Below, piece after piece: positions 1-62,188 of a stretch of DNA of 64,000 nt; position 1 is the stretch's first letter, and each line of letters opens with the position of its first letter. Location of the stretch: the NCBI RefSeq assembly GCF_005871165.1, contig NZ_SWKP01000005.1, positions 186,001-250,000 of the forward strand, written 5' to 3'. The notes beneath the pieces were generated by a model. The model saw nothing but the letters and a program-made list of their open reading frames with translations, did no database searches and was not told the origin of the DNA. Both the position numbers and the translations under genes were made by a program. Origin of the DNA: Maricaulis alexandrii (lineage in GTDB: Bacteria; Pseudomonadota; Alphaproteobacteria; Caulobacterales; Maricaulaceae).

Positions 1-1388
1 CGATAGCGTGTTTCACGTGAAACAGACGCGGCGCCGAGCTCGATCGCCTTTTCCGTGAGACGCTGGTCCGCATTATCGGCCCGCAGCGTCAGGCGATATT
101 CGGCCCGCGAGGTGAACATGCGATAGGGCTCGCTGACGCCCCGCGTGATCAGATCGTCGATCATCACACCGATATAGGCATCCGACCGGCTGAGGATGAA
201 GGCATCCCGATCCTGAGCCGACAAAGCGGCATTGAGGCCGGCCATCAGCCCCTGGGCCGCGGCCTCTTCATAGCCCGTCGTGCCATTGATCTGACCCGCC
301 AGCCACAAGCCCGGAATGGCCCGGACTTGAAGTGTTGCATCAAGTTCGCGCGGATCGACGTAGTCGTACTCGATGGCATAGCCGTAGCGCTTCACCTCGA
401 CCTGTTCGAGACCCGGAATGGTCCGCAGGAAGCGATCCTGAACCTCATCCGGCAGGGAGGTCGAAATCCCGTTCGGATAGACCGTGTCGTCGTCCAGACC
501 CTCCGGCTCCAGGAAGACCTGGTGCTGGGTCCGGTCCGCGAAGCGCACGACCTTGTCCTCGATGGACGGGCAATAGCGCGGCCCGCGGCCGGCAATCGCC
601 CCGCTATAGACCGCCGACTGTTCCAGATTGTCGCCGATGATCTTGTGCGTCGCTTCCGTGGTCCGGGTAATGGCACACGCGATCTGAGGCACGTCGATCC
701 GGTCCGTCAGGAAGGAAAACGGGACCGGTGTCTCATCCGCATCCTGCTTCTCCAGACTGTCCCAGTGGATGGAGGACTGACGCAAGCGCGCCGGCGTCCC
801 GGTCTTCAAACGGCCCATCTGAAGCTTGAGCCCGTAGAGACGCTCGCCCAGACCCATGGCCGGCTTCTCACCAAAGCGGCCTGCCGGAATGCGTTCGGCG
901 CCGCGGTGAATGATCCCGCGCAGGAAGGTCCCGGTGGTCAGCACCACGGACCCCGCATGATATTCCACACCGGACTCGTCCACCACACCCACGCAGCGCT
1001 CGCCATCGAGGATCAGATCTTCCACGGCGGCTGCCCGGATCTCCAGATTGACCATACCGTGAAGCTCGTCCTGCATCGCCTGGCGATAAAGCGCACGATC
1101 TGATTGGGTGCGCGGGCCCCGCACGGCCGGGCCCTTGGACCGGTTGAGCAAACGGAACTGGATGCCCGACGCATCGGCAATCCGCCCCATCACGCCATCC
1201 AGCGCATCGATCTCGCGAACCAGATGCCCCTTGCCCAGCCCGCCAATGGCCGGATTGCAGGACATCTCGCCAATCGTTTCGAGCTTGTGGGTCAAGAGCA
1301 GGATTTTGGCGCCCAGGCGCGCCGAAGCTGCGGCTGCGTCACAGCCGGCGTGTCCGCCGCCAATGATGATGACATCCCAGGACTGCAT
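1..1388 (-). CDS. mnmG: MnmG (GidA), tRNA uridine-5-carboxymethylaminomethyl modification enzyme, partial
   Basis: FAD-dependent partner of MnmE that installs the carboxymethylaminomethyl group on wobble uridine 34 of certain tRNAs. Only the first 462 or so residues (of about 620 usual) are inside the window; the 3' end lies beyond position 1. The reverse strand from the ATG at 1386-1388 reads [19 protein letters not shown], the FAD-binding Rossmann motif, followed by [22 protein letters not shown], the MnmG signature. It is downstream of mnmE on the same strand, in the alphaproteobacterial order mnmE-mnmG-(rsmG-parA-parB). A perfect parS site lies inside the coding sequence at 9-24. Confidence 0.96.
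9..24. other. parS: parS centromere site (perfect)
   Basis: The 16-bp palindrome TGTTTCACGTGAAACA is an exact match to the bacterial parS consensus bound by ParB. It is inside the mnmG reading frame. parS sites cluster near oriC and parAB, which normally follow mnmG in alphaproteobacteria. Confidence 0.93.
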
Positions 1389-1494: not shown

Positions 1495-1510
1495 TGTTTC
1501 ACGTGAAACA
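1495..1510. other. parS: parS centromere site (perfect)
   Basis: A second exact copy of TGTTTCACGTGAAACA, in the 134-bp gap between the mnmE stop (1523) and the mnmG start (1388). Two perfect copies within 1.5 kb, about 9-10 kb from the putative origin, fit a ParB loading region. Confidence 0.93.
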
Positions 1511-4489: not shown

Positions 4490-4631
4490 GAATTCGACCT
4501 CCCTCGATTATTCCCTTATGGCCGGATTGAGCCCCGGCTCGGCGCGAAATGAAACCCGTATTGATCGCATCGGCAAGATGCAGTCTTGTGACCGCGCAAT
4601 CGACACACGCCCTCCCGTCCAGATCGAGGAT

Positions 4632-4647
4632 TGTTTCACATGAAACA
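4632..4647. other. parS: parS-like site, one mismatch
   Basis: TGTTTCACATGAAACA differs from the parS consensus at one central base. It overlaps the ATG (4640) of the GDPD gene and encodes its first residues, so ParB binding here could affect that gene's start region. Third member of the cluster with 9-24 and 1495-1510. Confidence 0.7.
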
Positions 4648-5530
4648 TTCGCCTGCCCTCTTCCTGCTCGCCGGTCTCCTAACGGCCTGTTCCCCGGAGT
4701 CCCCAGCGCCGGCCGTTGAGCTCGCCGCGCCGGCCCTGGCCCTGGATTGCTTCCGGGAGAACGGCACCGCCATGCTGGCCGCCCACCGCGCCGGTCCGGC
4801 CTCCGGCTATGCCGAGAACGCACTGTCGAGCCTGGAGCGCCTGGCGGAACTCGGCGTGCTTTACGCGGAGATCGATGTCCGTCGCAGCGCTGACGGCACG
4901 CTCTTTCTGCTGCATGACGAGACGCTTGACCGGACCACGACCGGACGCGGTCCCGCGGAAACGCTGGACTGGTCCGAACTCTCGGTTCTGAACCTGCGGG
5001 ATCCCGACGGTGTCATCCTGGAAGACCGGATTCCGACCCTGTCTGATGCCTTTGCGATCACCCGGCAGACCGGTCTTGTCCTCAATCTGGACCTGAAATC
5101 GATCGGTCCCGACACCATTGTGGATGCCATCCACACCGCCGACGCCCGCCATCACGTCGCCATCATCGCCTATTCCGTCGAGGATGCCGCGGCAGTTCAT
5201 GCCCTCGATCCGGGCCTGGTCCTGTCCGCGCCCGATGATCCGGAGGCGCTGGCCCGCGCGGGCGTCAATCTGGACGCCACCTATCTCTGGCTGGGCACCG
5301 ACCCATCCGAGGCTCACCGGGATGCCCGCTTTTCCGATGACGGGATTGAGACTTCCATCGGTCTGTTTCGCCATGAACCCGGCCCGACCTCGCTTTACAC
5401 CGGGGCCCGTGATGCCGGTGTGGAACTCCTGTCCATTGATCATGTCGAGGATGCCGTGACCGCCCTGGGCGGGCCGACTGTCCTGCACGCCCAGATCGAT
5501 GCCTGCGCTGTCACCCCCGTGGAGAACTGA
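4640..5530 (+). CDS. glycerophosphodiester phosphodiesterase family lipoprotein
   Basis: 296-aa lipoprotein: the N-terminus MKHSPALFLLAGLLTACSP is a signal peptide with lipobox LTAC, so the mature protein is membrane-anchored in the periplasm. The GDPD catalytic pattern is intact: AAHRAG...AEN, EIDVRR and LLHDETLDRTTTG supply the two histidines and metal-binding acids. It probably releases glycerol-3-phosphate from glycerophosphodiesters. The ATG at 4640 sits within a parS-like palindrome; an upstream in-frame TTG at 4631 is less likely because the signal peptide begins at the ATG. The quinone oxidoreductase gene follows after 3 bp. Confidence 0.9.
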   Translation: MKHSPALFLLAGLLTACSPESPAPAVELAAPALALDCFRENGTAMLAAHRAGPASGYAENALSSLERLAELGVLYAEIDVRRSADGTLFLLHDETLDRTTTGRGPAETLDWSELSVLNLRDPDGVILEDRIPTLSDAFAITRQTGLVLNLDLKSIGPDTIVDAIHTADARHHVAIIAYSVEDAAAVHALDPGLVLSAPDDPEALARAGVNLDATYLWLGTDPSEAHRDARFSDDGIETSIGLFRHEPGPTSLYTGARDAGVELLSIDHVEDAVTALGGPTVLHAQIDACAVTPVEN

Positions 5531-5533
5531 GCC

Positions 5534-6508
5534 ATGACCCAAGCCATTCGCATTTCCGAGTTCGGGAATCCTTCGGTTCTTCAGATGGTTGAGATCGACC
5601 TGCCGGATCCGGGCCCCGGGGAAATCCGCGTCCGCCATGCGGCCATCGGCGTGAATTTCATCGACACCTATCATCGCTCCGGCCTCTACCCGCTGCCCCT
5701 GCCGGCCGGGATCGGTCTGGAAGCCGCCGGTGTGGTCGACGCCGTGGGGTCGGATGTCACCCATCTCAAACCCGGCGACCGGATCGCCTATGGCGGCGGT
5801 CCCATCGGCGCCTATTCGCAAGCGGCCAATCTGCCGGCCAACCGGGTCGCTTTGATCCCGGACGGAGTCACGGACGAGCAAGCGGCCACGTTGATGCTCA
5901 AAGGCATGACGGTGCGCTTCCTGTTCAAGGATTGCTTCGCCGTCAAACCCGGTGACACCATTCTCTTCCACGCCGCCGCCGGCGGGGTCGGCCAGATCGC
6001 CTGCCAATGGGCGAAGGATATGGGCGTCACCCTGATCGGGACTGCCGGTTCGGACGAAAAATGCCGTATTGCCAAGGAGATGGGCGCGGCCCACGTGGTC
6101 AATTACCGCCGCGAGAACATCGCCGAAAGCGTCCGCTCCCTGACTGAAGGCAAGGGTGTCCCGGTGGTCTATGACGGCGTTGGCGCCGACACATTCGAGG
6201 CCTCGCTGGACTGTCTCCAGCCACGCGGTCTCATGGTCAGCTTTGGCAATGCCTCCGGTCCGGTCACCGGCGTCAATCTGGGCCTGCTGGCCGCCAAGGG
6301 CTCGCTCTATGTCACCCGGCCCACCCTGATGCACTATATCGCCAAGGATGAGGATCTGGCCGCCAATACGGCGGATGTCTTCGATGCCGTGAAGCGCGGC
6401 GCCGTGACCAGCTCTATCGGGCAGCGCTATGCGCTCGCGGATGCGCGGCAGGCCCATGAAGACCTGGAAGCCCGCAAGACGATCGGTGCGAGCATTCTTC
6501 TTCCGTAA
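5534..6508 (+). CDS. quinone oxidoreductase, zinc-independent MDR family
   Basis: NADPH:quinone reductase-like enzyme of 324 aa. N-terminal GroES-like domain (IRISEFGNPSVLQMVEIDLPDPGPGEIRVRH, GLEAAGVVDAVG) and a C-terminal Rossmann domain with AAAGGVGQIACQWAK. It lacks the cysteine cluster of zinc alcohol dehydrogenases, as expected for the QOR branch. Translated probably together with the upstream GDPD gene (3-bp gap), with which there is no obvious metabolic link. A strong bidirectional terminator follows at 6532-6570. Confidence 0.94.
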   Translation: MTQAIRISEFGNPSVLQMVEIDLPDPGPGEIRVRHAAIGVNFIDTYHRSGLYPLPLPAGIGLEAAGVVDAVGSDVTHLKPGDRIAYGGGPIGAYSQAANLPANRVALIPDGVTDEQAATLMLKGMTVRFLFKDCFAVKPGDTILFHAAAGGVGQIACQWAKDMGVTLIGTAGSDEKCRIAKEMGAAHVVNYRRENIAESVRSLTEGKGVPVVYDGVGADTFEASLDCLQPRGLMVSFGNASGPVTGVNLGLLAAKGSLYVTRPTLMHYIAKDEDLAANTADVFDAVKRGAVTSSIGQRYALADARQAHEDLEARKTIGASILLP

Positions 6509-9646: not shown

Positions 9647-10681
9647 TCAGCCCCGTTCCCGGATCCGGCGCAGCAATTGGTGCACATGATCAACCGGGAC
9701 GTCGGGCGTAATTCCATGACCCAGGTTGAAGATATGGGGCCGGCCCGCCCAACTATCCAGAATACGATCTGTTTCCCGGTCCAGCGCATCCCCGCCGGCC
9801 CGCAGCGCCGCCGGATCAAGATGCCCCTGCACCGGCATGCCGTCCGGCAGGATGGACTGGGCATACGCCGGATCCATCCCGGTATCCAGGGCCACGGCAT
9901 TCACACCGGTTTCCCGGGCATAGCGCGCATACATGGAGCCGGCACCGCGCGGAAAGCCGATGATCGGCACCGTCACGCCCGCCGCCCGAACGCGGTCGAC
10001 GATCCGTTTGGTCGGATTGATCACGACCCGCTCGAACAGGGGTTCCGGCAGGCCTTCCGCCCAGCTGTCGAAAATCTTGAGAACCTCGGCACCGCTCTCA
10101 GCCTGCATGACGAGATATTCCGCGGTCGCGTCGGCAATCCGTTCCAGCATGCCGTCAAAGGCTTCAGGGTGCTGCCAGGCTGCCACACGGGCCGAGAACC
10201 GGTCCTTCGACCCGCCGCCCTCGACCATGTAGGTCGCGACGGTCCAGGGCGCTCCGGCAAAGCCGATCAGCGTGGTTTCGTCGGGCAGTTCAGGCTTCAC
10301 ACGGGTCAGGGTTTCACCAACCGGTCCGAGCACGCTGCGAACCGTATCGGTGGTCAGGTCTTCGAACTGGCGCACATCGAACGGTTCCAGCCTCGGTCCC
10401 TCACCGGCCACGAACCAGACCTTGCGGCCCAGGGCGATCGGGATGAGCAGGATGTCGGCGAACAGGATGGCCGCATCAAAACCGAACCGCCGGATGGGCT
10501 GGAGCGTGACTTCAGCGGCCAGATCCGGTGAGAAGCAGAATTTGATGAAGTCACCGGCTCGGGCCCTGACTTCCCGGTATTCGGCCAGATATCGGCCGGC
10601 TTGGCGCATGAGCCAGACCGGGGGCGGTGAAACCGTCTCGCCGGCGAGAACCTTCAAAAGGGGTTTGTTCGAATGTGTCAT
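9647..10681 (-). CDS. hemE: uroporphyrinogen decarboxylase
   Basis: Decarboxylates uroporphyrinogen III to coproporphyrinogen III in cytoplasmic heme synthesis. 344 aa; N-terminal signature PPVWLMRQAGRYLAEYREVR and the substrate-binding FADILLIPIALG segment are intact, as is GFAGAPWTVATYMVEGG. First gene left of the putative origin, transcribed away from it, followed by hemH and hemJ. The hemE boundary of oriC is the arrangement known in Caulobacter. Confidence 0.98.
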   Translation of the reverse strand: MTHSNKPLLKVLAGETVSPPPVWLMRQAGRYLAEYREVRARAGDFIKFCFSPDLAAEVTLQPIRRFGFDAAILFADILLIPIALGRKVWFVAGEGPRLEPFDVRQFEDLTTDTVRSVLGPVGETLTRVKPELPDETTLIGFAGAPWTVATYMVEGGGSKDRFSARVAAWQHPEAFDGMLERIADATAEYLVMQAESGAEVLKIFDSWAEGLPEPLFERVVINPTKRIVDRVRAAGVTVPIIGFPRGAGSMYARYARETGVNAVALDTGMDPAYAQSILPDGMPVQGHLDPAALRAGGDALDRETDRILDSWAGRPHIFNLGHGITPDVPVDHVHQLLRRIRERG

Positions 10682-11139
10682 CCCGTCTGATTAGGCATCA
10701 GTGGTCGAAGGATCAATGCGGTGTTTTCACCACCCACATTTAATCCCTCAATCTTATAGATTTTAATTGTTGTGTTTGTTGGGGGCGTGGAAGGTGTTGG
10801 CAGACACGGTCATACCGTAATCGACATATTCGCTTTGCCGGAAAAGGCATCCACAGCCTGTTTCCAACAGGGTTTGGAAAACCAGATTTATCTACGAAAA
10901 TTCAAAATCTTGATCGTGTTGTCGGGTGTGAATTATCAGTGTGAAAAGCGAAAATGGCGGTGAATTGGGTTTATGCGTCCACAGGCTTGCCAACAGGCCC
11001 GCACCATGTGGAAAGTCTTGTTGGTTGCCGCGGGTAAGACCCGGTAATACTCACAGGGGTCTGGGAGGGCGCCGGATTTGTCCGGAGTTTTCCCAACTTG
11101 TTAACAGAGCGTAAACGCGAAACAGGGGACGCAAGCCGG
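10682..11139. other. oriC: putative chromosomal replication origin (oriC)
   Basis: 458-bp gene-free region between divergent hemE and the PPSR gene, the place of the Caulobacter origin. It holds an AT-rich stretch (about 10736-10776, CACATTTAATCCC...GATTTTAATTG) and several imperfect DnaA-box-like 9-mers: GCATCCACA (10847-10855), TTATCTACG (10888-10896), GCGTCCACA (10975-10983) and, on the other strand, TGTGGAAAG (11007-11015). Gene direction switches here: six genes on the left run left, five on the right run right. No perfect TTATCCACA box and no CtrA TTAA-N7-TTAA site was found, so protein sites are inferred only. Confidence 0.75.
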
Positions 11140-11979
11140 ATGAGTGTGCCGACCAAGAGCATCGAAACCTGTTTCCATATCCACATGGTGTCCGACTCCA
11201 CGGGGGAAACCCTGATGGAAGTCATGCGCGCCTCGGTGGCCCAGTTCGAAGGGACGAGCCCGCTTGAGCATTTGTATGCCTTGGTGCGCTCATCCCGGCA
11301 GATGGAGCGCGTTTTCGACGAGATCGCGGCCTATCCGGGCATCGTCATGTATACCGTGGTCAATCCGGATCTGCGCCGCGAGCTGGAAACCAAGTGTGTC
11401 GAGCTGGGCATTCCGGCGATTGCCGTGCTCGATCCCATGCTGGCCACCCTGTCTGCCTATCTCGGTCGCCCCGTGGCCAGCCGCGCCGGCGCCCAGCGTT
11501 CCCTGGATGCGGAGTATTACAAGCGGATCGACGCGCTCAATTTCGCCATGGCCCATGATGATGGCCAGGGCGATGATTATGAAGCGGCGGACATCGTGCT
11601 TCTGGGTGTCAGCCGGACCTCCAAGACGCCGACCAGCATTTATCTCGCCCATCGCGGTTTCCGGGCGGCGAACATTCCGCTGGTGAAAGGCGTGCCGATC
11701 CCGGAAGCGATCTATTCCCTGCGAAACCCGCTTGTGGTCGGCCTGACCGCGTCGCCGGAGCGGATCGTCCAGATCCGGCGGAACCGGCTTTTGTCCCTGA
11801 ATGAAGACCGGGATACCGATTACATTGATGATTTCGCGGTGAAGGACGAAATCCTTCATGCCAAGCGTCTCTACGCCAAATACAAATGGCCGACGATCGA
11901 TGTGACCCGCCGCTCGATCGAGGAAACGGCCGCCAAAATCATCAATCTTCTCACCGAAAAGCGGAACCAGTCCAAATGA
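11140..11979 (+). CDS. pyruvate, phosphate dikinase regulatory protein (PPSR/PDRP family)
   Basis: Bifunctional serine/threonine kinase and pyrophosphorylase (DUF299) that switches pyruvate phosphate dikinase or PEP synthase off with ADP and on with Pi. 279 aa; opens with HMVSDSTGETL and contains the phosphate-binding loop GVSRTSKTPTSIYLA (about 156-170), both signatures. Start ATG 11140 is preferred (AGGGGAC 9 bases upstream, no coding character in the extra 14 residues from 11098). It is the homologue of the gene that borders the Caulobacter origin opposite hemE. The stop overlaps maf (ATGA). Confidence 0.95.
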   Translation: MSVPTKSIETCFHIHMVSDSTGETLMEVMRASVAQFEGTSPLEHLYALVRSSRQMERVFDEIAAYPGIVMYTVVNPDLRRELETKCVELGIPAIAVLDPMLATLSAYLGRPVASRAGAQRSLDAEYYKRIDALNFAMAHDDGQGDDYEAADIVLLGVSRTSKTPTSIYLAHRGFRAANIPLVKGVPIPEAIYSLRNPLVVGLTASPERIVQIRRNRLLSLNEDRDTDYIDDFAVKDEILHAKRLYAKYKWPTIDVTRRSIEETAAKIINLLTEKRNQSK

Positions 11980-30592: not shown

Positions 30593-30608
30593 TGTTTCAC
30601 GTGCAACA
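30593..30608. other. parS: parS-like site, one mismatch
   Basis: TGTTTCACGTGCAACA is one base off the parS consensus. It lies in the 172-bp gap between the WYL regulator and the SnoaL-like gene, about 20 kb from the putative origin on the side opposite the other three sites. Otherwise no feature was seen in this gap. Confidence 0.55.
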
Positions 30609-39348: not shown

Positions 39349-39696
39349 ATGTACAAGTCTGTTATACTCGTCTCGATCGCCGCTGTGAGCCTGACCGCCT
39401 GTGGTGCCACCACGCGCGGCGCGGCCACCGGCGCAGCCATGGGGGCGGCAGCGGGGGCTGTCATCGGCAATAATACCGGGTCCGGCGATGCGGAGTCCGG
39501 GGCCATCATCGGTGGTGTGGTCGGCGGGGCCGCCGGCGCCTATGCCGGTTGCCGGTCCGAGGGCGGTTGCCGCTGGACGGAGGACAATCCGAACCAGTCG
39601 CGCCTCTATCTCGATGAACGCGCAAACCGCTATTATTACGTCAATAATCGCGATGGATGCACCTATTGGCGCAATGGCGAATACCGCGCCTGCTAG
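39349..39696 (+). CDS. glycine-zipper 2TM-type lipoprotein
   Basis: 115 aa. Lipoprotein signal MYKSVILVSIAAVSLTAC (lipobox LTAC) and a glycine zipper (AATGAAMGAAAGAVIGNNTGSGDAESGAIIGGVVGGAAGAYAG) as in outer-membrane Rick_17kDa-like proteins; the tail is Tyr- and Arg-rich (LYLDERANRYYYVNNRDGCTYWRNGEY). Role unknown. ATG 39349 has GGGAG nine bases upstream; an ATG at 39334 is less likely. Confidence 0.85.
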   Translation: MYKSVILVSIAAVSLTACGATTRGAATGAAMGAAAGAVIGNNTGSGDAESGAIIGGVVGGAAGAYAGCRSEGGCRWTEDNPNQSRLYLDERANRYYYVNNRDGCTYWRNGEYRAC

Positions 39697-39703
39697 GCCG
39701 GGT

Positions 39704-40045
39704 TCAGCCGAACAATCGCCGGGCCAGGGCGCCCAGGACGACGACGGAAAACACCGGGACCATGACGGGGATCACCTTCAGGGCCCAGCTTTCCGGCAGG
39801 AAGAAGACATCCCGCTCCCAGCCCTCGGTCCGCCCGGTCATGCGGCAGGCCAGGGTCTGCAGGATGCAGGTCCCGCGATTGAGCAGGATGCCGATCAATA
39901 TCCCCAGCGGGGGCAGGAGGGCCAGCACCGCCCACCGGCCCCCGTTTCCTGTCAGGGCATAGTGTGCCAGTGGCACCAGCATGGCGATGCAGACGACGAC
40001 GATCAGCGTATGCACGAGCCGCAGGGCAAACAGGGCGACGGCCAT
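39704..40045 (-). CDS. small membrane protein next to a glutamate-synthase-like gene
   Basis: 113 aa with three to four hydrophobic helices (LVHTLIVVVCIAMLVPLAHYAL, AVLALLPPLGILIGILL, VIPVMVPVFSVVVLGALA). The start directly abuts the stop of the upstream glutamate-synthase-like gene (TGAATG), so translation is coupled. Function unknown. Sequences of this shape accompany glutamate-synthase-like genes, but I cannot name the family. Confidence 0.78.
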   Translation of the reverse strand: MAVALFALRLVHTLIVVVCIAMLVPLAHYALTGNGGRWAVLALLPPLGILIGILLNRGTCILQTLACRMTGRTEGWERDVFFLPESWALKVIPVMVPVFSVVVLGALARRLFG

Positions 40046-52972: not shown

Positions 52973-53132
52973 CCGATTTGGACTTCGGGATGGTTAAGCC
53001 TGTGGAAAACCCAATGCTGATGGCGGGTTAGCGGTTTCTTAAGAAATTCGCCCCGGCCTTTTGGCAGACGGTCGTTTCCTGCCACGACACGCCCGAACAC
53101 GGTTTCTATGTTTCGGTATGTCGGGGAATAGC

Positions 53133-54068
53133 ATGGCGGCACGGACAAGCTCAGTAGCGTTCGAGGGAGCCGAAGCCCGCCGGGTTGAGGTGCAAGTCCA
53201 GATTGCAGGCGGGTCCCAGCCGATCTTTTCCGTCGTGGGTCTGGGCGACAAGGCGGTCAATGAAAGCCGGGAACGGGTGCGCGGGGCTTTCTCAGCGATC
53301 GGCCTGTCCCTGCCGTCGAAACGCCTGATCGTGAATCTGGCGCCGGCGGACCGGCCCAAGGAGGGGGCGCACTTCGATCTGCCCATCGCAATCGGTGTCC
53401 TCGCCGAGCTCGGCGTTCTGCCCAAGGATGCTGCCGAGGACTATCTCGTCTTCGGGGAGCTGGGGGCCGACGCCCGTATCCGTCCGGCGCCTGGAGCGCT
53501 GCCCGCAGCGGTCGCAGCCAATGCCGCCGGATTGTCGCTGATCTGTCCGGAGGCCAGTGGTCCGGAAGCCGCCTGGGCGGGTGGCGATCTGCCCATTCTG
53601 GCCCCGGCGACGCTGATCCAGCTGATCAATCACTTCAAGGGCAGCCAGGTCCTGGCCCGTCCGGCGCCGGGTGAGCTCGTCGAAACCGACGCCTTGCCGG
53701 ATCTGCGCCAGGTGAAGGGTCAGGAAAGCGCCAAACGGGCCGTCGAGATCGCGGCGGCCGGACACCATAATCTCCTCATGGTCGGCCCACCCGGTTCGGG
53801 CAAGTCCATGCTGGCCGAACGCCTGCCCGGGCTCTTGCCACCGCTCGACCCGTCCGAACTGCTGGACGTGTCCATGATCCATTCCGTGGCGGGTCTGCTG
53901 GAACGGGGCTGTCTGACCCGGTCACGCCCTTTCCGCTCGCCCCACCACTCCGCTTCTATGGCGGCCATGGTCGGGGGCGGTACGCGGGCCCGGCCCGGTG
54001 AGGCCTCCCTGGCGCACCATGGGGTGCTCTTTCTCGACGAATTGCCGGAATTCCACGGCATTATGTAG
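53133..54068 (+). pseudogene. comM: ComM (YifB), AAA+ Mg-chelatase-family helicase, 5' fragment interrupted by insertion
   Basis: ComM-type hexameric helicase that aids branch migration in transformation and recombination in other bacteria. The fragment (311 aa) carries the N-terminal domain ([40 protein letters not shown]), the Walker [20 protein letters not shown], and ends at Walker [12 protein letters not shown], followed by HGIM and a TAG contributed by the element's left end. Residues up to F307 are native. Removing 54056-62196 joins LDELPEF to HPQVLDSLRQP and restores a 509-aa frame. A LexA-type box precedes it. Confidence 0.93.
54048..54055. repeat. target-site duplication, left copy
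   Basis: GAATTCCA immediately before the element's left end; repeated at 62189-62196 immediately after its right end. An 8-bp duplication is the size reported for IS1595-family elements. Confidence 0.95.
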
Positions 54069-54079
54069 CAAATGCACAA
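54056..54079. repeat. left terminal inverted repeat of the IS1595 element
   Basis: Begins CGGCATTATGTAGCAAATGC and matches the inverted right end at 22 of 24 positions. It contains the TAG that ends the ComM 5' fragment. An A-run (up to 54084) follows, similar to the right side. Confidence 0.93.
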
Positions 54080-54103
54080 AAAAAGTGGTCGTACGATGTA
54101 TTG

Positions 54104-54346
54104 TTATGAGAGGTCTTGGACCATCTTAGCTGTCTTTCGGTCTCGTGATTTAGGTGAATCATCTAATATTTGTTTGTTCTTATCAAGGTGAAGACGAGCA
54201 CCATCCGATTCCACATATTCATTCAATATTGCGCGCACTAATTTCGACAGTGTGAGCCCATGACCAGATGCAGCATTATGCAAATGATTATATGTTTCCT
54301 CATCGAGAGAAAGTGAAAATCGTTTGATCTTGGATGTTTGACTCAT
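54104..54346 (-). CDS. ribbon-helix-helix (CopG-like) protein
   Basis: 80 aa from ATG 54346: MSQTSKIKRFSLSLDEETYNHLHNAASGHGLTLSKLVRAILNEYVESDG. The beta strand KRFSLSLDEET and two helices are the RHH DNA-binding fold used by antitoxins and plasmid regulators; a basic tail follows. The start overlaps the stop of the upstream membrane ORF (ATGA). Alone it has no identifiable toxin, but see the neighbour. Confidence 0.75.
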   Translation of the reverse strand: MSQTSKIKRFSLSLDEETYNHLHNAASGHGLTLSKLVRAILNEYVESDGARLHLDKNKQILDDSPKSRDRKTAKMVQDLS

Positions 54347-54546
54347 GGATGGCTCCAATTATTGATCCAGAGCAGTTTTACAGCCGCTGACGCCTGAAAG
54401 ATTAAGAAAAGGCAGACAAACATGAACCCCAAACGATGGAGACTTTGGTTATAGAAGGGAAATCGCTTCATCGTGTTTGGCATCCTATCATCTAGAATGA
54501 GGAACAGCATCTCGATGGATGCGATTATGCTCATAATTTGAAACAT
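54343..54546 (-). CDS. small two-helix membrane protein paired with the RHH gene
   Basis: 67 aa from ATG 54546 (MFQIMSIIASIEMLFLILDD...LGFMFVCLFLIFQASAAVKLLWINNW): helix 1 at about 3-18 and helix 2 at about 43-62. GGGAG seven bases upstream supports this start over a longer GTG frame. Overlaps the RHH gene by 4 bp; might be a toxin-like or membrane partner, but no family is recognised. Confidence 0.55.
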   Translation of the reverse strand: MFQIMSIIASIEMLFLILDDRMPNTMKRFPFYNQSLHRLGFMFVCLFLIFQASAAVKLLWINNWSHP

Positions 54547-54931
54547 CAGCGCGCGCTCCCATACATTCTGTGTCACAGGAACTGTAAGCGATGAGCAATT
54601 AACAGAGACTTAAAAGTGCACCAATTGCACTCCGGTATAGAGTTCCAAAACTCTGACTTGTTATGGCAAAAACACTATATGTGGTAGGAATAAAACAGGA
54701 ACGACCGCCACCACTTGACGAAGAATGGTTTCCGCTATTTCATTTTGTGGAGCGGAGTCGAAAAGGGCCGCAGGGTCTTCCACACCCGTACGGCCCAGAT
54801 CGATTTCGTCCCCGTGACCATTGTTGGTGGTCGAGCGCGGGGCGTGTGCGGAAATCGGATGGCTACGGAATCGCGATCTGACTCTGGTGTCAAGGCTCGA
54901 CCACGCATTTTGGCAAGAAAGGCCAAGTGTT
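54547..54931. other. gap of about 385 bp without a confident gene
   Basis: Upstream of the RHH/membrane pair, which reads left, and of the ORF at 54932, which reads right. Three overlapping rightward frames (from 54663, 54715 and 54821) are open for 70-120 codons but none has convincing coding character, and they end or frame-shift against one another. It may hold promoters and a decayed gene. Confidence 0.4.
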
Positions 54932-55186
54932 ATGTCAAGCTATGATGTAGCCCTGATTAAAGAACAGGGCGTCACCTTCGCAGTGGTCTCGGTCAAGGAC
55001 CACATCCTTCACAACACCCATGAGTCCAACAAGGCGGTCGAAGCGTTCAGCTACGAGTTTGGCTGTCCCGCCGTGATCATGGGGGCGAGGAACCATAAGC
55101 TTTATGGGCGTCGCGATCTGGTGAATTTCCTTTCGAGGATTTCCATTTCGCGGCTGCCGTGGAAGCGCTGGAACCGCGCAGCATAG
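54932..55186 (+). CDS. small hypothetical protein
   Basis: 84 aa from ATG 54932: MSSYDVALIKEQGVTFAVVSVKDHILHNTHESNKAVEAFSYEFGCPAVIMGARNHKLYGRRDLVNFLSRIS. Mixed alpha/beta look (VTFAVVSVK, PAVIMGARNHKLYGRRDL) with no membrane segment. Family not recognised. An upstream frame in phase (54821) could be an older N-terminus but has no family support. Confidence 0.5.
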   Translation: MSSYDVALIKEQGVTFAVVSVKDHILHNTHESNKAVEAFSYEFGCPAVIMGARNHKLYGRRDLVNFLSRISISRLPWKRWNRAA

Positions 55187-55232
55187 TCCGGGTGGCCGAA
55201 TGTCACCGAACGACGTTCGGCCACTCATTCAC

Positions 55233-56000
55233 TCACGGTATGAGCTTGCACAATTCCGTCTCGGCCAATGCCGGATATCCGGCATTTTCGTAGCTCCGCA
55301 CCTCATCCACAATTCGTTTCGCCCGCCGAATTTCATTGTTCCGCCACTCTGCGGATTCATTGGGGCTAAGACTGTCAAAGACATGGAACACATAGTCTCG
55401 CAAGTTTGAGCAGAGGAAGTAGTTTCTGTCCGTGATCCATTTTTCAAATCTGAAACTGTCAAAAACATGATTTCTGTTGGCGTTCCATATTTTTGCTAGT
55501 CGAATTGTTGGTTTCAGCTTTGAGCCTTCCTCTCCATTCCGCTCTGATAAATGAGAGCTGAATTCAAGAGGCGAAGTTCCCTGCCAACCAAGAGCCAAAT
55601 CTGGAATTTGATACTCTCGCCACAAAGACGTTATCGCTGGTACCAAATCAAATTTGATATGGTTTAGCTCTAGAACCAGTGAAGGCGAGTCCTGCTTTAT
55701 GGACGAACTGGGGTAGTAATACTCTGCGAATTTTTTCAGCCGGGCCAAATAGGTTTGTGGCTGAAAGCTTCCGTCTGCGAAAACCACCATATAGTCGATG
55801 TCTGATCGCGAGTCGTATGACCTCGGTAAGATAGTGCCGCGCGTTGACGACCCGAACCGGAAGTGCCGAACAAGGTCGTTTCCAAAATAAGAATCCAGCC
55901 GCGCTGAAATGGTATTGATTGAAGTCGTTATGGAGGCTTGCTCCGGCCCCGATAGAATCGCGGCTGATGCCCTGCTCTGCAAATGGCCCAGAACACTCAT
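55233..56000 (-). CDS. Pol-beta-fold nucleotidyltransferase, SMODS/CD-NTase-like
   Basis: 255 aa. Catalytic core FRFGSSTRGTILPRSYDSRSDIDYMVVF gives the GS loop (G50, S51) and DxD acids D67 and D69; the third acid is D118 in HIKFDLVPAI. This spacing is that of cGAS/DncV-like (CD-NTase) enzymes that make cyclic or linear oligonucleotide messengers in CBASS defence. The C-terminal helical half is shorter than in typical CD-NTases (about 300-400 aa), so it may be a minimal SMODS. All catalytic acids are present. Overlaps the SLATT gene stop (ATGA), so the two are translationally coupled. Product unknown. A non-CBASS nucleotidyltransferase remains possible. Confidence 0.8.
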   Translation of the reverse strand: MSVLGHLQSRASAAILSGPEQASITTSINTISARLDSYFGNDLVRHFRFGSSTRGTILPRSYDSRSDIDYMVVFADGSFQPQTYLARLKKFAEYYYPSSSIKQDSPSLVLELNHIKFDLVPAITSLWREYQIPDLALGWQGTSPLEFSSHLSERNGEEGSKLKPTIRLAKIWNANRNHVFDSFRFEKWITDRNYFLCSNLRDYVFHVFDSLSPNESAEWRNNEIRRAKRIVDEVRSYENAGYPALAETELCKLIP

Positions 56001-56506
56001 TTTGTTACTCCATCATCAACTTCATGAAGTGCTTCACCTTCTTCAATGCCTTTGCGTGCTTTTTGAAAATCAGAGTTCAAGAATGTGGGTGCAGCGCGGT
56101 TTAGGTCTTTTTGGCGGCTCACAAGAACGTCCAGCAGGTCAGACGTTAGTGAAACGTCATCCGCTGTTGGGAGACGAATTGTTCGGAACCGCCTAACATC
56201 GCCCTTGAGTGCAAGGTATTGATCGCCTGCACCCTTGTGCTCAGCGGCTTGTTCGGCGGGTTTTAGAAAAGTTAGCAGAGCGGTTAGGATCGTTGCGGCC
56301 AGTGACAGAACACCCGCAACTACATGATAATCTGCGAAGATGGCTGTTCCGGCGGCTGCGCTAGATATAACGGCACAACTTCCCAGAATCCGATGTTGCC
56401 ACGTCAGCCGTTCCGTAGCGTTGAAATGGGCTTTACCCGTGTATTTGCAGTCTTCTTCGACCCTGCGAAGCTCCGCATCGATGCTCGATCTCGTGTCTTC
56501 GTTCAT
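55997..56506 (-). CDS. SLATT domain (two-transmembrane) protein, likely effector
   Basis: 169 aa. Two hydrophobic helices, about 40-60 (ILGSCAVISSAAAGTAIFADY) and 62-81 (VVAGVLSLAATILTALLTFL), are followed by a cytoplasmic helical region KPAEQAAEHKGAGDQYLALKGDVRRFRTI and the end APTFLNSDFQKARKGIEEGEAL. This is the SLATT (SMODS and SLOG-associating two-TM effector) layout. SLATT proteins are predicted membrane-damaging effectors activated by nucleotide signals. First gene of the operon; the nucleotidyltransferase follows with a 4-bp overlap. Confidence 0.82.
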   Translation of the reverse strand: MNEDTRSSIDAELRRVEEDCKYTGKAHFNATERLTWQHRILGSCAVISSAAAGTAIFADYHVVAGVLSLAATILTALLTFLKPAEQAAEHKGAGDQYLALKGDVRRFRTIRLPTADDVSLTSDLLDVLVSRQKDLNRAAPTFLNSDFQKARKGIEEGEALHEVDDGVTK

Positions 56507-56606
56507 AACGCCCCAACCTTTTCATTCGGAACTTACATGGGGGTTCCAACCGCAGGTGTGATCCTCGTCACGTAAAAGTGCTGTGGATTACGGGCCTAAG
56601 TACTAG
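56507..56606. promoter_or_regulatory. divergent promoter region of the SLATT operon and a small ORF
   Basis: 100-bp gap between the leftward SLATT-nucleotidyltransferase operon and the rightward 112-aa ORF. Promoters for both must lie here; no clear operator or hairpin was seen. Confidence 0.35.
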
Positions 56607-56945
56607 ATGGAAAACAACAATGCCGATCAGGCACAGTCTCAAAGTACGATTGTCTGCCGCGCTCTGGCGCTAACCGATGAGGCTTGGCGAGCCAACGCTG
56701 CTGGACGTGAATTTGACTTTCGTCGGGTAGAAATGGGGTTCGAGGCATTGCTGGCCTCTGTCGCCACTATGGAACTAGACCCTTCTCTTGAAAGAGACCC
56801 GGTCGTGTCAAACATTCTCAGAGTGCTTTCTTCATCCAACGTGATAGCGCGGCGCTACGATCACCGCCACGCATTCGATCTGCTAGTGCGAGCCGCCGGA
56901 CCGATCACCGACAAGGCAAAGTGTTTAGATACGGCGAAACGCTAG
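56607..56945 (+). CDS. hypothetical protein, 112 aa
   Basis: Soluble, charged (MENNNADQAQSQSTIVCRALALTDEAWRANAAGREFDFRRVEMGFEALLASVATMELDPSLERDPVVSNILRVL...). No motif recognised. Divergent from the SLATT operon and may be regulated with it. It overlaps the 3' end of the following lipoprotein gene by 4 bp. Confidence 0.5.
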   Translation: MENNNADQAQSQSTIVCRALALTDEAWRANAAGREFDFRRVEMGFEALLASVATMELDPSLERDPVVSNILRVLSSSNVIARRYDHRHAFDLLVRAAGPITDKAKCLDTAKR

Positions 56946-57454
56946 TTTCTAGGCCTACTACGGTAATGCCCTCGAACGTAAGTTCCATCAGATCGATAGT
57001 AGCCTTGGACGTATACAGTTCTTGGCCTGCCGGTCTGGCTGCTAATGTCGCCATAACACGACCCGTTCTCAGCACAGTGTGGTCTAGTGCCGGTAGGTGA
57101 ATTGACACTCGACGAACTCAGATAGTCAGTTCGCGCAATGATGGCTTCCTCGACAGAGTCATACTGATTGCCATTGAAAACATAGACAGGTGAAAACGAT
57201 GAGGCCGGAATGCCGTCACTAGAAACGTTTGCGCCGGAAGGCCGATAACAGTGACAGGTGTCTTGGTATTCTAGAGACGCCCCGTCACCTGTCTCTCGTC
57301 TCAGCGGGTTCTGAACCACTTCGATTGGCGGGATTTGGCCTTTTTGTTGGGCAATGTAGGCAGCAGACTGCGGCCCCATCAGCGGACTTGTGGGACCATA
57401 GTAAGAACACGCACTCAAAAGAATGGCCGCAAACGTCACTGTGATAAGCCGCAC
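56942..57454 (-). CDS. predicted lipoprotein
   Basis: 170 aa from GTG 57454 (MRLITVTFAAILLSACSYYG), a signal peptide with lipobox LSAC. GGGAGG a few bases upstream supports this start over GTG 57460. The body is polar with repeated Ser/Tyr/Gly (CHCYRPSGANVSSDG, YYRSDGTYVRGHYRSRP). Function unknown; might be an envelope adaptation cargo. Confidence 0.6.
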   Translation of the reverse strand: MRLITVTFAAILLSACSYYGPTSPLMGPQSAAYIAQQKGQIPPIEVVQNPLRRETGDGASLEYQDTCHCYRPSGANVSSDGIPASSFSPVYVFNGNQYDSVEEAIIARTDYLSSSSVNSPTGTRPHCAENGSCYGDISSQTGRPRTVYVQGYYRSDGTYVRGHYRSRPRN

Positions 57455-57525
57455 GATCACCTCCCGCTTTTCGTGTGGAACGTTCTATCACATCTAGTCG
57501 TAGACCTACTAGGCAGGCTGATTGC

Positions 57526-57825
57526 CTAATCAACGTAGTAGCTCGTCCCCCAATCCGGTTCGGCGGTGTAGCGGACAACGCAACGCATGGTTTGTTGTCC
57601 CATTCCGCCGAAGCCGTTACGCGCCGTGACATCCCACGTGACGATGTAACTATGATTGCTTGCTGATCGAACCGAGCTGTTTTCAAAACGCGAACCAGCC
57701 GGTTCGCGAAGGCGTTCTCGCAAGTGTTCTTTGCAAATGCCTGCGGCATCAATTTCAGGATTGAACTCACAACCAGAAGCCAGCACGCACGTAGCCGCCA
57801 GCAGGAACACCTGCTTCACACGCAT
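57526..57825 (-). CDS. small predicted lipoprotein
   Basis: 99 aa from ATG 57825 (MRVKQVFLLAATCVLASGC; lipobox ASGC) with TGGAGA six bases upstream; a longer start at 57837 is less likely. The body reads EFNPEIDAAGICKEHLRERLREPAGSRFENSSVRSASNHSYIVTWDVTARNGFGGMGQQTMRCVVRYTAE. Function unknown. Divergent from the XRE gene. Confidence 0.6.
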   Translation of the reverse strand: MRVKQVFLLAATCVLASGCEFNPEIDAAGICKEHLRERLREPAGSRFENSSVRSASNHSYIVTWDVTARNGFGGMGQQTMRCVVRYTAEPDWGTSYYVD

Positions 57826-57852
57826 CACGATCTCCATGTAAATATAAGAAGA

Positions 57853-57878
57853 TCGTATATCGCAAAATCGTATTTATG
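57853..57878. promoter_or_regulatory. direct repeats in the divergent XRE promoter, possible operator
   Basis: Between the lipoprotein and XRE genes, ATCGTATATCGC and ATCGTATTTATG lie head to tail, sharing ATCGTAT. A position just upstream of an XRE gene suggests autoregulation. Confidence 0.4.
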
Positions 57879-57906
57879 CAAGCGCTGGTTTCAGAGGCCA
57901 GCGATC

Positions 57907-58164
57907 ATGCCGAAGTCGGTTTTCACGGATGCGTATAAGACGTTCTTGGACGTGCTGATTCAGGCGCGGAAGGATGCTGGTGTAACGCAGGCCGAGCTGG
58001 CGGAACGGTTAGGCAAACCTCAGCCATGGGTTTCGAACATCGAGCGCGGAATTAGGCGGGTTGATGTTATCGAGTTCATAGCGATCTGCCACGTGTTGCG
58101 CGTCCAACCTGATGCGACCATCTCCACAATATCAGATAGGTTGTCCCCGCCTATTTCGATTTAG
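57907..58164 (+). CDS. XRE family HTH regulator
   Basis: 85 aa from ATG 57907: MPKSVFTDAYKTFLDVLIQARKDAGVTQAELAERLGKPQPWVSNIERGIRRVDVIEFIAICHVLRV. A standard helix-turn-helix of the Cro/C1 type, with TQAELAERLGKPQPWVSNIERG as the core. No partner toxin is recognised, but the next gene follows 12 bp downstream. Confidence 0.85.
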   Translation: MPKSVFTDAYKTFLDVLIQARKDAGVTQAELAERLGKPQPWVSNIERGIRRVDVIEFIAICHVLRVQPDATISTISDRLSPPISI

Positions 58165-58176
58165 ACGAGGCCGCCG

Positions 58177-58926
58177 ATGCCGATTACTCCTCCCGCAATC
58201 TCCACAAAGCGACTGCTCGCTAGAAAGCTGCTCGATGCGGTGGTTGGCGAGGTACCGCTAGTCGGAGGCCCTTTGGCAGCGCTCTATAGTGTAACTCACC
58301 CCGCGAAGGGCGATATTCAGTTTAATCAATGGGTTACCGAAATCACCGCACTCGTGAATTCACTAGAGCAGGCGATTAAATACGTATCACAAAGCATCAC
58401 GCTATCTGAGGAGGCTGCATCCTTCGGTCTTTGGATCGCGCAACAATCAGAATCCGGCGGTAGGTTTGATCTTCTAAGCTATGATCATTTAGTCGAGAAT
58501 TTCGAGTGCCCAAATGGCGCTTCTCTTTCTGACCTCGTTGGCGAACTCGAACTGGAAGGGATGCTGAGAGTCTCCAAATGTCTAGGCAAGCCGTTCTCTT
58601 CCGTCCGGCCCTCGCACAAACTGTTTGAAACTTTCGATCCGGTAATTTTCGACGAGGCTAACCCACGTAGCGACGCAGCTCAGATTGTTCAGCGGTATCT
58701 TACAAAAGAAGAAGATGCGATTTCCGCGTCCAAGCTAGCCGAAGACTTCGGCTGGTTGCCTCGCCGGTTAAATCCAGCTTTGGCTATCATCGCTGACTAC
58801 ATCGGCGAGCGACGGATAAGTGCGCCAATGGGACAGCCCTATGTCGCGCGCGTAATGTTTCCGGACATTAGCGAGCGAATTGCGCTTAAACGGCTTGTCC
58901 AATCAGTTCAGGGAGATCAGAACTAA
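58177..58926 (+). CDS. uncharacterised protein with possible C-terminal winged helix
   Basis: 249 aa. N-terminal region contains a weakly hydrophobic stretch (KLLDAVVGEVPLVGGPLAALYSVTHP), a central acidic helical region (EQAIKYVSQSITLSEEAASFGLWIAQQS), and a C-terminal part whose ISASKLAEDFGWLPRRLNPALAIIADYIGERRISAPMG looks like a winged helix-turn-helix. Lies 12 bp after the XRE gene and is probably co-transcribed. No family recognised; could be the second half of an accessory regulatory or defence module. Confidence 0.6.
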   Translation: MPITPPAISTKRLLARKLLDAVVGEVPLVGGPLAALYSVTHPAKGDIQFNQWVTEITALVNSLEQAIKYVSQSITLSEEAASFGLWIAQQSESGGRFDLLSYDHLVENFECPNGASLSDLVGELELEGMLRVSKCLGKPFSSVRPSHKLFETFDPVIFDEANPRSDAAQIVQRYLTKEEDAISASKLAEDFGWLPRRLNPALAIIADYIGERRISAPMGQPYVARVMFPDISERIALKRLVQSVQGDQN

Positions 58927-59076
58927 AAAATTGCGTGCTGCAATTTCCGCTGCGAGAACACTAAATATATGATTGTCATATATTGAATGGGCCCGTTATG
59001 TGGAAGTACTACTATTTCGAACAAATAATTAAGACTGATGGGTCAATTGAATATCGACAAATTAGAAGGTGGAAAG

Positions 59077-59286
59077 CTATTCTTTTAATGGCAAGATGCG
59101 GGTTCCAGCATCTCGTAAATGCTTGCAAGACAATAAGATAGTTCCGCCATCATCATTTTGTTCTTTCGCGACGCACATCGTATTCCAAGTGAAAGCATCT
59201 GCTTGTTCAATCTCGCGTCCGTCAGGTAGCGTGACGGATACCATTTCAAACCCACATTCTTCACACTTTACTTTTGGCTTAGCCAT
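59077..59286 (-). CDS. small cysteine-rich protein
   Basis: 69 aa: MAKPKVKCEECGFEMVSVTLPDGREIEQADAFTWNTMCVAKEQNDDGGTILLSCKHLRDAGTRILPLKE. CEEC and two further Cys (MC, SC) could bind zinc. Overlaps the stop of the upstream short ORF by 8 bp. Function unknown. Confidence 0.5.
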   Translation of the reverse strand: MAKPKVKCEECGFEMVSVTLPDGREIEQADAFTWNTMCVAKEQNDDGGTILLSCKHLRDAGTRILPLKE

Positions 59287-59506
59287 TTTTGAAATTCATC
59301 CTAGATTTGTCCGCGGATCGCACCTTCACTAGTGAGATGTCGCTGTCGTCGTTGCCGATCACATTAATTGCTTCGCCAACCATGGCTTCAATCTGTTCGA
59401 CATTCGCGGAATGCATTTCGAGCGAGGTGTATAGAACGAGAACACGTTTCCACTCAGCATCTTGAATCTCATATTCAAATTCATGCGATACTAAATTTTC
59501 CACCAT
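59279..59506 (-). CDS. hypothetical protein, 75 aa
   Basis: Starts at ATG 59506 (MVENLVSHEFEYEIQDAEWKRVLVLYTSLEMHSANVEQIEAMVGEAINVIGNDDSDISLVKVRSADKSRMN) with TGGAG nine bases upstream. No known family. Leftward pair with the cysteine-rich gene. Confidence 0.5.
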   Translation of the reverse strand: MVENLVSHEFEYEIQDAEWKRVLVLYTSLEMHSANVEQIEAMVGEAINVIGNDDSDISLVKVRSADKSRMNFKNG

Positions 59507-59611
59507 GTCATTTTGCTCCACGTATTGTTGTGCTTTGGGTTTTGTCCCACCAAGGTGGAGTATTGCGGGGCTGTCGAAAAACACAAGACCGTAGCATTTG
59601 TTGAGGCGGAG

Positions 59612-60046
59612 ATGAGCCGAGCGCAAGTCTGTAAAACGTTGGAGCGAAAGTACGCCGCTGTTCTTGGCGAGTTTGTTGCGGCGCCCGCTGCCGACAATGC
59701 CGACAGCCTAAAGGAAGCCCTTGCCGCCATCCAGATCGTCATCCGCCTTTGGGAACCGGATTGGCTGCCGGATCACATCAAGCCGATCAGACCGAAACAG
59801 TCCTACGCGACGCACGGCATTCAAAGCCGCCTTCTCTTTGAATTCATCGGCGCTCGAACCGGAAGCTTCACGGCTATGGAAGCGGCAGAATACGTATCTG
59901 TCAGGTTGGAAGCGCTAGGCGAGACCATTCCGCCCATCGAAAATATTAAAATAAACGCACACAACTTAATGCGCAAACTGGAGAGTAAATTTGTCGTGTC
60001 AAATAATACACGGCCTGAAACTTGGACAAAGATAAATAAAAAGTAG
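59612..60046 (+). CDS. IS1595-associated helical protein
   Basis: 144 aa from ATG 59612 (MSRAQVCKTLERKYAAVLGEFVAAPAADNADSLKEALAAIQIVIRLWEPDWLPDHIKPIRP), with GAGGCGGAG just before. Helical throughout; the second half (LLFEFIGARTGSFTAMEAAEYVSVRLEALGETIPPIENIKINAHNLMRKLE) looks like a winged helix-turn-helix. Proteins of this shape stand beside IS1595 transposases in alphaproteobacteria as I recall; role unknown. Confidence 0.65.
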   Translation: MSRAQVCKTLERKYAAVLGEFVAAPAADNADSLKEALAAIQIVIRLWEPDWLPDHIKPIRPKQSYATHGIQSRLLFEFIGARTGSFTAMEAAEYVSVRLEALGETIPPIENIKINAHNLMRKLESKFVVSNNTRPETWTKINKK

Positions 60047-60130
60047 CCTGCATTGCTTTTTTAGTTGACAATATACGAAATCCGTATATATCGACGCGCG
60101 CATTGATTCGTTAACTACACGGAGGCGCAG

Positions 60131-61162: not shown

Positions 61163-61650
61163 CCGATCTCTGTCCAAGCTTGTGTCCAGACCACAATTTG
61201 AAATTTGAACTGTTCACGCCAGACGAGCTTTTTAAAAAATTGGCCCAGCATGATGTTGGCGGCATTTATTCCATCGGCCTAACACGCATCCACGAAGTGC
61301 TAGTTCGGGCTGGATACATCAAGGAAGCGCCGGAAGTTTGGACTGGTAGCCATTTCCACGTCTATGTCGGTGAAACCTATTCTTTGAAGGTCCGTATGGG
61401 TCAACACTTCGGCCTTGATGGTGAAGTATCAAACTTCCGAACCACCTTAGCCATGGTCCTTGGAATGGATGACGCGGCAACGAAGCGCTTTCTGTTCGAA
61501 AAGGCCGTAATCGGTTGGCGTTATGTAGACTTCATGGGTGATGTGGAACGCGATCTGATCAAGAGAACGGCTTGCCCCTTAAACCTACGAGGCAAAGGCC
61601 CGTCGCCATTTGCAAAGCGGCTTCGGAAGTTGAAACGGCAGATCGGCTAA
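61159..61650 (+). CDS. GIY-YIG nuclease-like protein, transposase-coupled
   Basis: 163 aa from GTG 61159, overlapping the transposase stop by 4 bp. GGIYSIGLTRIHEVLVRAGY and HVYVGETYSLKVRMGQHFG give the GIY and YVG (for YIG) halves with the spacing of the family, with Arg in KVRMG; the C-terminal part has CPLNLRGKG like the last conserved Asn. GIY-YIG enzymes cut DNA. The genetic coupling suggests a role in transposition. Confidence 0.78.
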   Translation: MTDLCPSLCPDHNLKFELFTPDELFKKLAQHDVGGIYSIGLTRIHEVLVRAGYIKEAPEVWTGSHFHVYVGETYSLKVRMGQHFGLDGEVSNFRTTLAMVLGMDDAATKRFLFEKAVIGWRYVDFMGDVERDLIKRTACPLNLRGKGPSPFAKRLRKLKRQIG

Positions 61651-61655
61651 AGAAC

Positions 61656-62120: not shown

Positions 62121-62164
62121 GCGCTGTAAATAGCAAATACAGAGGGGATTCTGTACTCTTTTTA

Positions 62165-62188
62165 TTGTGCAAATGCTACATAATGCCG
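62165..62188. repeat. right terminal inverted repeat of the IS1595 element
   Basis: Inverted copy of the left end, 22 of 24 positions identical; ends CTACATAATGCCG. It contains an ATG (62183) in frame with the ComM 3' fragment. Flanked by the right copy of GAATTCCA. Confidence 0.93.

Follow-up and report, generated by a model that had tools for sequence, protein, structure and literature searches.

Introduction

The hemE/COG1806 flanks of the chromosome origin of Caulobacter and its relatives are treated as established in passages of PMC1914354. According to passages of a review, Cori, the origin of Caulobacter, relies on G- and W-boxes, which are weaker DnaA boxes, and CtrA sterically excludes DnaA; beside a citation of Shaheen et al. 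2009, the same passages state that some marine Caulobacter origins use CtrA and that this probably evolved independently (PMC4468827). The G-box is given as TGATCCACA in a passage of PMC4285127, and for Hyphomonas neptunium a passage of PMC7200025 describes a CtrA ChIP-seq signal at a site beside the origin. The passages on Maricaulis and the replication origin that we consulted in the open-licence literature contained no description of the origin treated here. The Maricaulis origin of MCS10, the subject of Shaheen, Ouimet and Marczynski in 2009 (Microbiology 155:1215), reportedly has a single CtrA site over a critical DnaA box. That site is said to be unique in its genome, and the CtrA and DnaA activities are said to have been separated by mutation.

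We analysed a window of 64,000 nucleotides from Maricaulis alexandrii (C4:186001-250000, where C4 is a contig of 647,450 bp in a genome of 3,348,699 bp and 12 contigs). Positions are those of the window unless prefixed C4. The intergenic gap between hemE and the PPSR (COG1806) gene measures exactly 458 bp (10682-11139), and the features discussed below are collected in Table 1.

Results

The hemE-PPSR gap is very probably the chromosome origin

The genes nearest to the gap point away from it on either side: rho, a hemJ-like gene, hemH and hemE lie to the left on the minus strand, and PPSR, a maf-like gene, aroE, coaE and dnaQ lie to the right on the plus strand; the genes at 4631-6508 are again on the plus strand. 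The GC content of the gap is 0.491, compared with 0.58-0.62 in the surrounding 2-kb windows and 0.637 in the contig. An earlier note, made from the letters of this DNA, had proposed a putative origin here from a flip in gene orientation, the flanks of the Caulobacter origin and an AT-rich gap of 458 bp, and all of these observations are borne out (hemE minus, PPSR plus, GC as given). The closest named relatives of the PPSR protein are from Maricaulis parjimensis DSM 16078 (98%) and a Maricaulis MAG (97%). Across the order, hemE was found beside PPSR in 60 of the 62 genomes for which the gap region was taken (120 searched), and hemE lay upstream of PPSR in 80/80 loci compared, Pelagibacter included; the adjacency did not appear in the stretches used for L188 and for L021/L180, which are a single genome.

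For GC skew, C4 (1 of the 12 contigs) was taken as 33 stretches, which were joined. The cumulative minimum of the 647-kb contig fell at C4:196430, which is window position 10430 and 252 bp outside the gap; a minimum located elsewhere was what the earlier note had named as a possible refutation of its origin call. The skew of C4 is not clean: it stays around zero over C4:1-80000 and dips slightly below zero at 520-580 kb. The near-zero skew over C4:1-80000, together with the position of dnaA (C4:18065-19459, ~177 kb from the gap), may point to a rearrangement. We also sampled the single-contig chromosome of a congener (G049, 3,368,780 bp) with 20 samples of 20 kb. All ten samples starting from 1 to 1.53 Mb had positive skew and all ten starting from 1.70 to 3.245 Mb had negative skew. 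Within the last sample, the minimum was at 3,258,810, 1.8 kb from the start of the PPSR match (3,257,049), and the point opposite the origin, by arithmetic ~1.57 Mb, is where the sign of the skew flips back.

A search of the whole genome for parS, allowing at most two mismatches to the consensus, gave five places, all in C4:185481-216608 and within 20 kb of the gap, and the reversed parS control gave no match in the whole genome. The genes parB (C4:183159-184079, ~12.6 kb from the origin) and mnmG (C4:185529-187388) adjoin the cluster. The ORF beside parB, in the place expected for parA, was assigned to no family at E 1e-40. The parS-like site at 30593-30608 is found 19.5 kb rightward of the origin, with parB and the other four sites on its other side. 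The parS-like cluster and the sampled whole-chromosome skew of the congener add further backing to the origin call.

Gene orientation can produce skew switches over short ranges, and both flanking genes begin at the gap, as they would at an ordinary divergent promoter region with the origin elsewhere; we regard this reading as extremely improbable given the skew minimum on the scale of 647 kb, the skew of the congener, the parS cluster and the maximum in DnaA-like density described below. A scan of 10600-11250 for sigma-70 promoters and terminators, which covered this one promoter type, found neither, and this also speaks against an ordinary promoter region. Of the features expected of an origin, the gap has the skew minimum close by and a cluster of DnaA boxes, albeit weak ones only; of those expected of a Caulobacter-type hemE/COG1806 origin, it has the boundary genes and a par locus nearby. 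Overall, we conclude from these sequence data that this Maricaulis strain very probably has its chromosome origin in the gap at 10682-11139.

Elsewhere in the window, a low-GC island (~54069-62180; GC about 0.48-0.52 versus 0.63) splits a Mg-chelatase gene, which we take to be ChlI/ComM-like, into two parts (53061-54068 and 62081-62803). Genes in the island encode an IS1595-type transposase (60131-61162), a GIY-YIG protein (61135-61650) and, as a CBASS-like pair of two genes, a SMODS cyclase (55233-56000) and a 2TM SLATT-type effector (55997-56506).

Table 1. Features of the gap and its surroundings in the window. Mean mismatches are to TTATCCACA; fractions give the aligned Maricaulis gaps that lie within three mismatches.
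Feature	Position	Strand	Basis
parS, exact TGTTTCACGTGAAACA	9-24	.	motif search
parS, exact	1495-1510	.	motif search
parS-like, one mismatch	4632-4647	.	motif search
hemE, left flank	9647-10681	-	TIGR01464, 390.5 bits
AT-rich stretch, candidate unwinding element	10736-10780	.	40-bp windows starting 10736-10741 at 75-77.5% AT
DnaA slot beside AT-rich stretch, CTGCCAACA	10795-10803	-	mean 3.00; 11/16
GGTCATACC, palindrome of GGTNNNACC type, hemE side	10808-10816	.	pattern search
DnaA-like GCATCCACA	10847-10855	+	two mismatches; in part of the genus only
DnaA slot TAATTCACA	10927-10935	-	mean 2.62; 13/16
DnaA slot in tandem with the 10927 slot, start 10938; CTTTTCACA at 10940-10948	10938-10948	-	mean 3.50; 9/16
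DnaA slot GCGTCCACA; TGATCCACA or TCATCCACA in some congeners	10975-10983	+	mean 2.75; 13/16
DnaA slot TTGCCAACA	10987-10995	+	mean 2.25; 15/16
DnaA slot CTTTCCACA, best conserved	11007-11015	-	mean 1.94; 16/16
DnaA slot CAACCAACA	11019-11027	-	mean 3.31; 8/16
Tandem GGTAAGACC-C-GGTAATAC, 10-bp period, direct repeat of GGTNNNACC	11033-11050	.	strict pattern in 14/17 distinct Maricaulis gaps
DnaA slot ATACTCACA; TTACCCACA in two congeners	11047-11055	+	mean 2.62; 16/16
DnaA half of composite, TTGTTAACA	11098-11106	+	mean 2.31; 16/16
CtrA half of composite, TTAACAGAGCGTAAA	11101-11115	+	one mismatch to TTAA-N7-TTAA; 17/17 distinct Maricaulis gaps
PPSR (COG1806) gene, right flank	11140-11979	+	ATG at 11140; NF003742, 324.2 bits
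parS-like, one mismatch	30593-30608	.	motif search

An array of weak DnaA slots is conserved in Maricaulis

The DnaA consensus TTATCCACA is missing from the gap even when one mismatch is allowed, and so is an exact TTAA-N7-TTAA CtrA site, which confirms both absences recorded in the earlier note. Its count of four weak 9-mers was too low: six 9-mers in the gap lie within two mismatches of TTATCCACA, compared with a contig mean of 0.59 per 458 bp, and six were reached by none of 300 dinucleotide shuffles of the gap. The maximum in the contig is seven such 9-mers, found only in 458-bp stretches that start at 10728-10818 and run into PPSR. The sole other place in the contig with six per 458 bp is C4 ~39,440-40,010.

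We aligned 16 Maricaulis gaps and averaged the mismatches to TTATCCACA for each reference position and strand. Over 848 position-strands the mean mismatch was 6.71 (sd 0.92), with seven slots at 3.0 or less and nine at 3.5 or less, and 60 permuted consensuses gave on average 0.4 slots at 3.0 or less (maximum 2) and 1.28 at 3.5 or less (maximum 6). Nine weak DnaA slots thus hold their position and strand across the 16 gaps, the congeners sharing ancestry so that conservation counts are not independent. Individual species carry differing weak versions in each slot, and a few carry strong ones (such as TGATCCACA in L043, TTACCCACA in L008 and L041). The absence of a consensus box in one genome can therefore hide a kept array that becomes visible only by comparison.

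The earlier note had suggested that the origin may differ from that of Caulobacter in its DnaA input. This stands insofar as the gap has no G-box TGATCCACA within one mismatch (an exact one is present in the congener L043), but the missing TTATCCACA is no departure from Caulobacter because Cori itself has weaker G- and W-boxes. GANTC and the IHF consensus WATCAANNNNTTR, the latter expected of a Caulobacter-type origin, were likewise absent from the gap.

The highest AT content in the gap is that of the 40 bp at 10738-10777, and a second AT-rich stretch starts at 10875-10878 (72.5%). The AT maximum varies in place within the genus, lying further right and away from the hemE side in 9 of the 16 Maricaulis gaps, so the stretch on the hemE side is a candidate for the one that opens. 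A search of the gap for the DnaA-trio (3'-GAT-5') found no forward unit and a reverse score of 1.0 (one trio). With the strict trio, the mean best scores were 0.41 forward and 0.94 reverse in 17 Maricaulis gaps (0.22 in shuffles), and 1.18 forward and 0.76 reverse in 63 gaps from outside Maricaulis (0.18 in shuffles). With a forward trio score of zero, we do not claim a basal unwinding system (BUS) for the gap of the window.

Many gaps of the Oceanicaulis clade resemble a BUS in having TAG separated by a spacer of 12 bp from a DnaA box on the minus strand, a BUS-like arrangement seen at fixed spacing on the hemE side in L046, L047, L045, L050-L052 and others; the published spacer peak of 10-13 bp, as given in a passage of PMC8287927, spans this 12 bp. 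The window and most Maricaulis gaps differ in having TTG at the corresponding place, which falls short of the strict trio. A run of TAG-like trinucleotides is present in L176.

A composite DnaA/CtrA site is conserved beside PPSR

At the PPSR end of the gap, the DnaA-like TTGTTAACA (11098-11106) overlaps TTAACAGAGCGTAAA (11101-11115), a CtrA-type site that is one base short of the consensus. A CtrA match with at most one mismatch was reached in 58 of 300 shuffles of the gap and is not rarer than chance, so the support for the CtrA site comes from its conservation and not from its sequence. We therefore turned to 21 Maricaulis loci, which represent 17 distinct gaps (L039 being included by its place in the Maricaulis clade of the HemE tree). 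The composite pattern, TT-N-TTAACA followed by GTAAA or GTTAA, was present in 17/17 distinct gaps, with M. maris DSM 4734 (L037) showing the same pattern; at the composite, TTAA-N7-TTAA is exact in two gaps (L008 and L041) and has one mismatch in the other 15. The pattern has one match in the whole genome, and the reversed control has none. An overlapping DnaA/CtrA site that is unique in its genome, as reported for the marine Caulobacter type, is thus found at 11098-11115, with one mismatch in the CtrA half. In one Maricaulis MAG (L042) the distance from the composite to the inferred PPSR start is 109 bp, compared with 34-46 bp elsewhere, and the start may be misplaced or the gap extended.

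The genome encodes DnaA, CtrA (NF045991, 432 bits; on C7) and GcrA. TTAACA is also part of the DnaA-like box, and DnaA alone could therefore conserve much of the CtrA site. It is conceivable that the origin lies here and CtrA does not act on it, 11098-11115 being a weak DnaA box with flanking sequence, as would fit the lack of an exact CtrA site in 15 of the 17 gaps and the ease with which one-mismatch matches arise in an AT-rich gap. However, the right half-site GTWAA, which lies outside the DnaA box, is kept in 17/17 gaps and therefore goes beyond the DnaA box alone, which would not need a second half. Together with the exact sites in L008 and L041, and with exact CtrA sites 36-37 bp before PPSR in the outer lineages L015, L025 and L172, this makes an origin free of CtrA action quite unlikely. 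We conclude from the conserved sequence that the origin probably does receive a CtrA input, through a single remaining site whose sequence overlaps a DnaA-like box. The suspicion of the earlier note that the CtrA input is unusual holds in that there is one CtrA-type site instead of five; that input appears reduced, not absent.

We compared these gaps with 13 distinct gaps of the Oceanicaulis-Glycocaulis-Marinicauda-Alkalicaulis group. At the corresponding place, all 13 have a TTCACA box (12 as TT[AG]TTCACA and L055 as ATGTTCACA) and none has the CtrA pattern. In the middle of the gap, CtrA sites with at most one mismatch occur in 13/13 and exact ones in seven; it is the seven exact sites that carry weight because one-mismatch sites easily arise by chance. 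The DnaA-box half of the composite and the plain DnaA box thus differ by a single base, TTAACA versus TTCACA, and gaps with the plain box have their CtrA-like sites elsewhere.

In the HemE tree (68 rows), the Oceanicaulis group is a supported clade (100/99) and Maricaulis is another (100/99). Among the outer lineages, L015, L044 and L172 have the composite, and L025 has a variant in which the first base of the box differs. Seven rows assigned by the database to the same family (L173-L179) are without the composite and lie elsewhere in the HemE tree, and the pattern also occurs in rows of other families (L191 and L204). Within the portion of the family that surrounds Maricaulis, the composite may represent the older state, the alternative being independent gain; the deciding fork has support of 80/58.

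A tandem palindrome lies among the DnaA slots next to PPSR

The element GGTNNNACC, repeated in the tandem at 11033-11050, was counted 29 times in the 17 Maricaulis gaps (shuffles, 2.2) and 19 times in 63 gaps from elsewhere (shuffles, 6.3), related gaps not being independent. Three copies are found in L009, two at the hemE end in Oceanicaulis L046 and L047, and two in L187, which belongs to another family. Over the whole genome, the generic tandem GGTN3ACCNGGTN3AC shows no enrichment (5 matches versus 6 for the reversed control), so the support for the tandem is its conservation at the gap only.

The tandem may serve the origin or the transcription of PPSR. The stretch at 11019-11055 lies within 121 bp before PPSR, FadR- and PdhR-type regulators have GGTNNNACC as the core of their operators, and the genome encodes two regulators with an FCD domain; 11019-11055 could then be the promoter/operator of PPSR, with GGTNNNACC as a GntR/FadR-type operator, and not part of origin control. 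We consider this possible but doubtful, as the tandem stands at the hemE end in Oceanicaulis L046/L047, the stretch has no sigma-70-like hexamers, and neither FCD gene has a convincing operator next to it: one has three unconvincing matches in its vicinity (C4:363211, 364112 and 364366) and the other has none, and we rejected a GntR/FCD operator for GGTNNNACC on these grounds. A speculative and rather unlikely proposal is that the tandem binds a regulator of the origin, perhaps one of GntR/FCD type that senses a central metabolite; together with the composite, this would make the inputs to these origins shifting ones. Literature passages on OpaA with Cori, Caulobacter and DnaA gave no OpaA motif. 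The GGTNNNACC element is a concrete candidate for a further origin input.

Discussion

The location of the gap, its conserved slots and a conserved composite that is unique in the genome are features of the sequences compared here. We propose that the gap is the origin, that a weak DnaA array opens an AT-rich stretch and that CtrA~P blocks an overlapping box, and we give this model as a whole a probability of about 0.8. By analogy with Caulobacter and with the reported marine Caulobacter origins, which guide what we suggest for DnaA binding, the place of unwinding, occlusion by CtrA and cell-cycle timing, DnaA would assemble cooperatively on an ordered series of boxes, each of them weak (10927-11106), and, via the slot at 10795-10803, would open an AT-rich stretch, most likely that on the hemE side at 10736-10780. 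In non-replicating swarmer cells, CtrA~P on 11101-11115 would shut DnaA out of the overlapping box at 11098-11106, and the origin would be held off until CtrA is removed.

A marine dimorphic bacterium that is not a Caulobacter thereby has an origin with good support. Further, the contrast between Maricaulis and Oceanicaulis can be used to test directly how a regulator of the cell cycle becomes attached to, or detached from, an origin. If the proposals for GGTNNNACC and for the composite, with its TTAACA versus TTCACA, were both true, the origins of this family would gain, lose and move regulatory inputs by very few changes.

The MCS10-type marine Caulobacter (Maricaulis) origin, which belongs to a different species, is reportedly alike in having one CtrA site that overlaps a DnaA box. 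If the MCS10 origin is as reported, the composite is a further member of an already reported kind of origin; the present analysis also covers the conservation of the slots, the outer lineages and the Oceanicaulis counterpart. The origin of Hyphomonas neptunium shares with the present one a CtrA site near the origin, seen by ChIP-seq there, in a passage of PMC7200025, and predicted from sequence here. The Cori of Caulobacter crescentus, as described in passages of PMC1914354 and PMC4468827, is alike in its hemE/COG1806 flanks, AT-rich stretch, low-affinity DnaA boxes and CtrA-type sites, and differs in having five CtrA sites, compared with one site of one mismatch in the Maricaulis gap.
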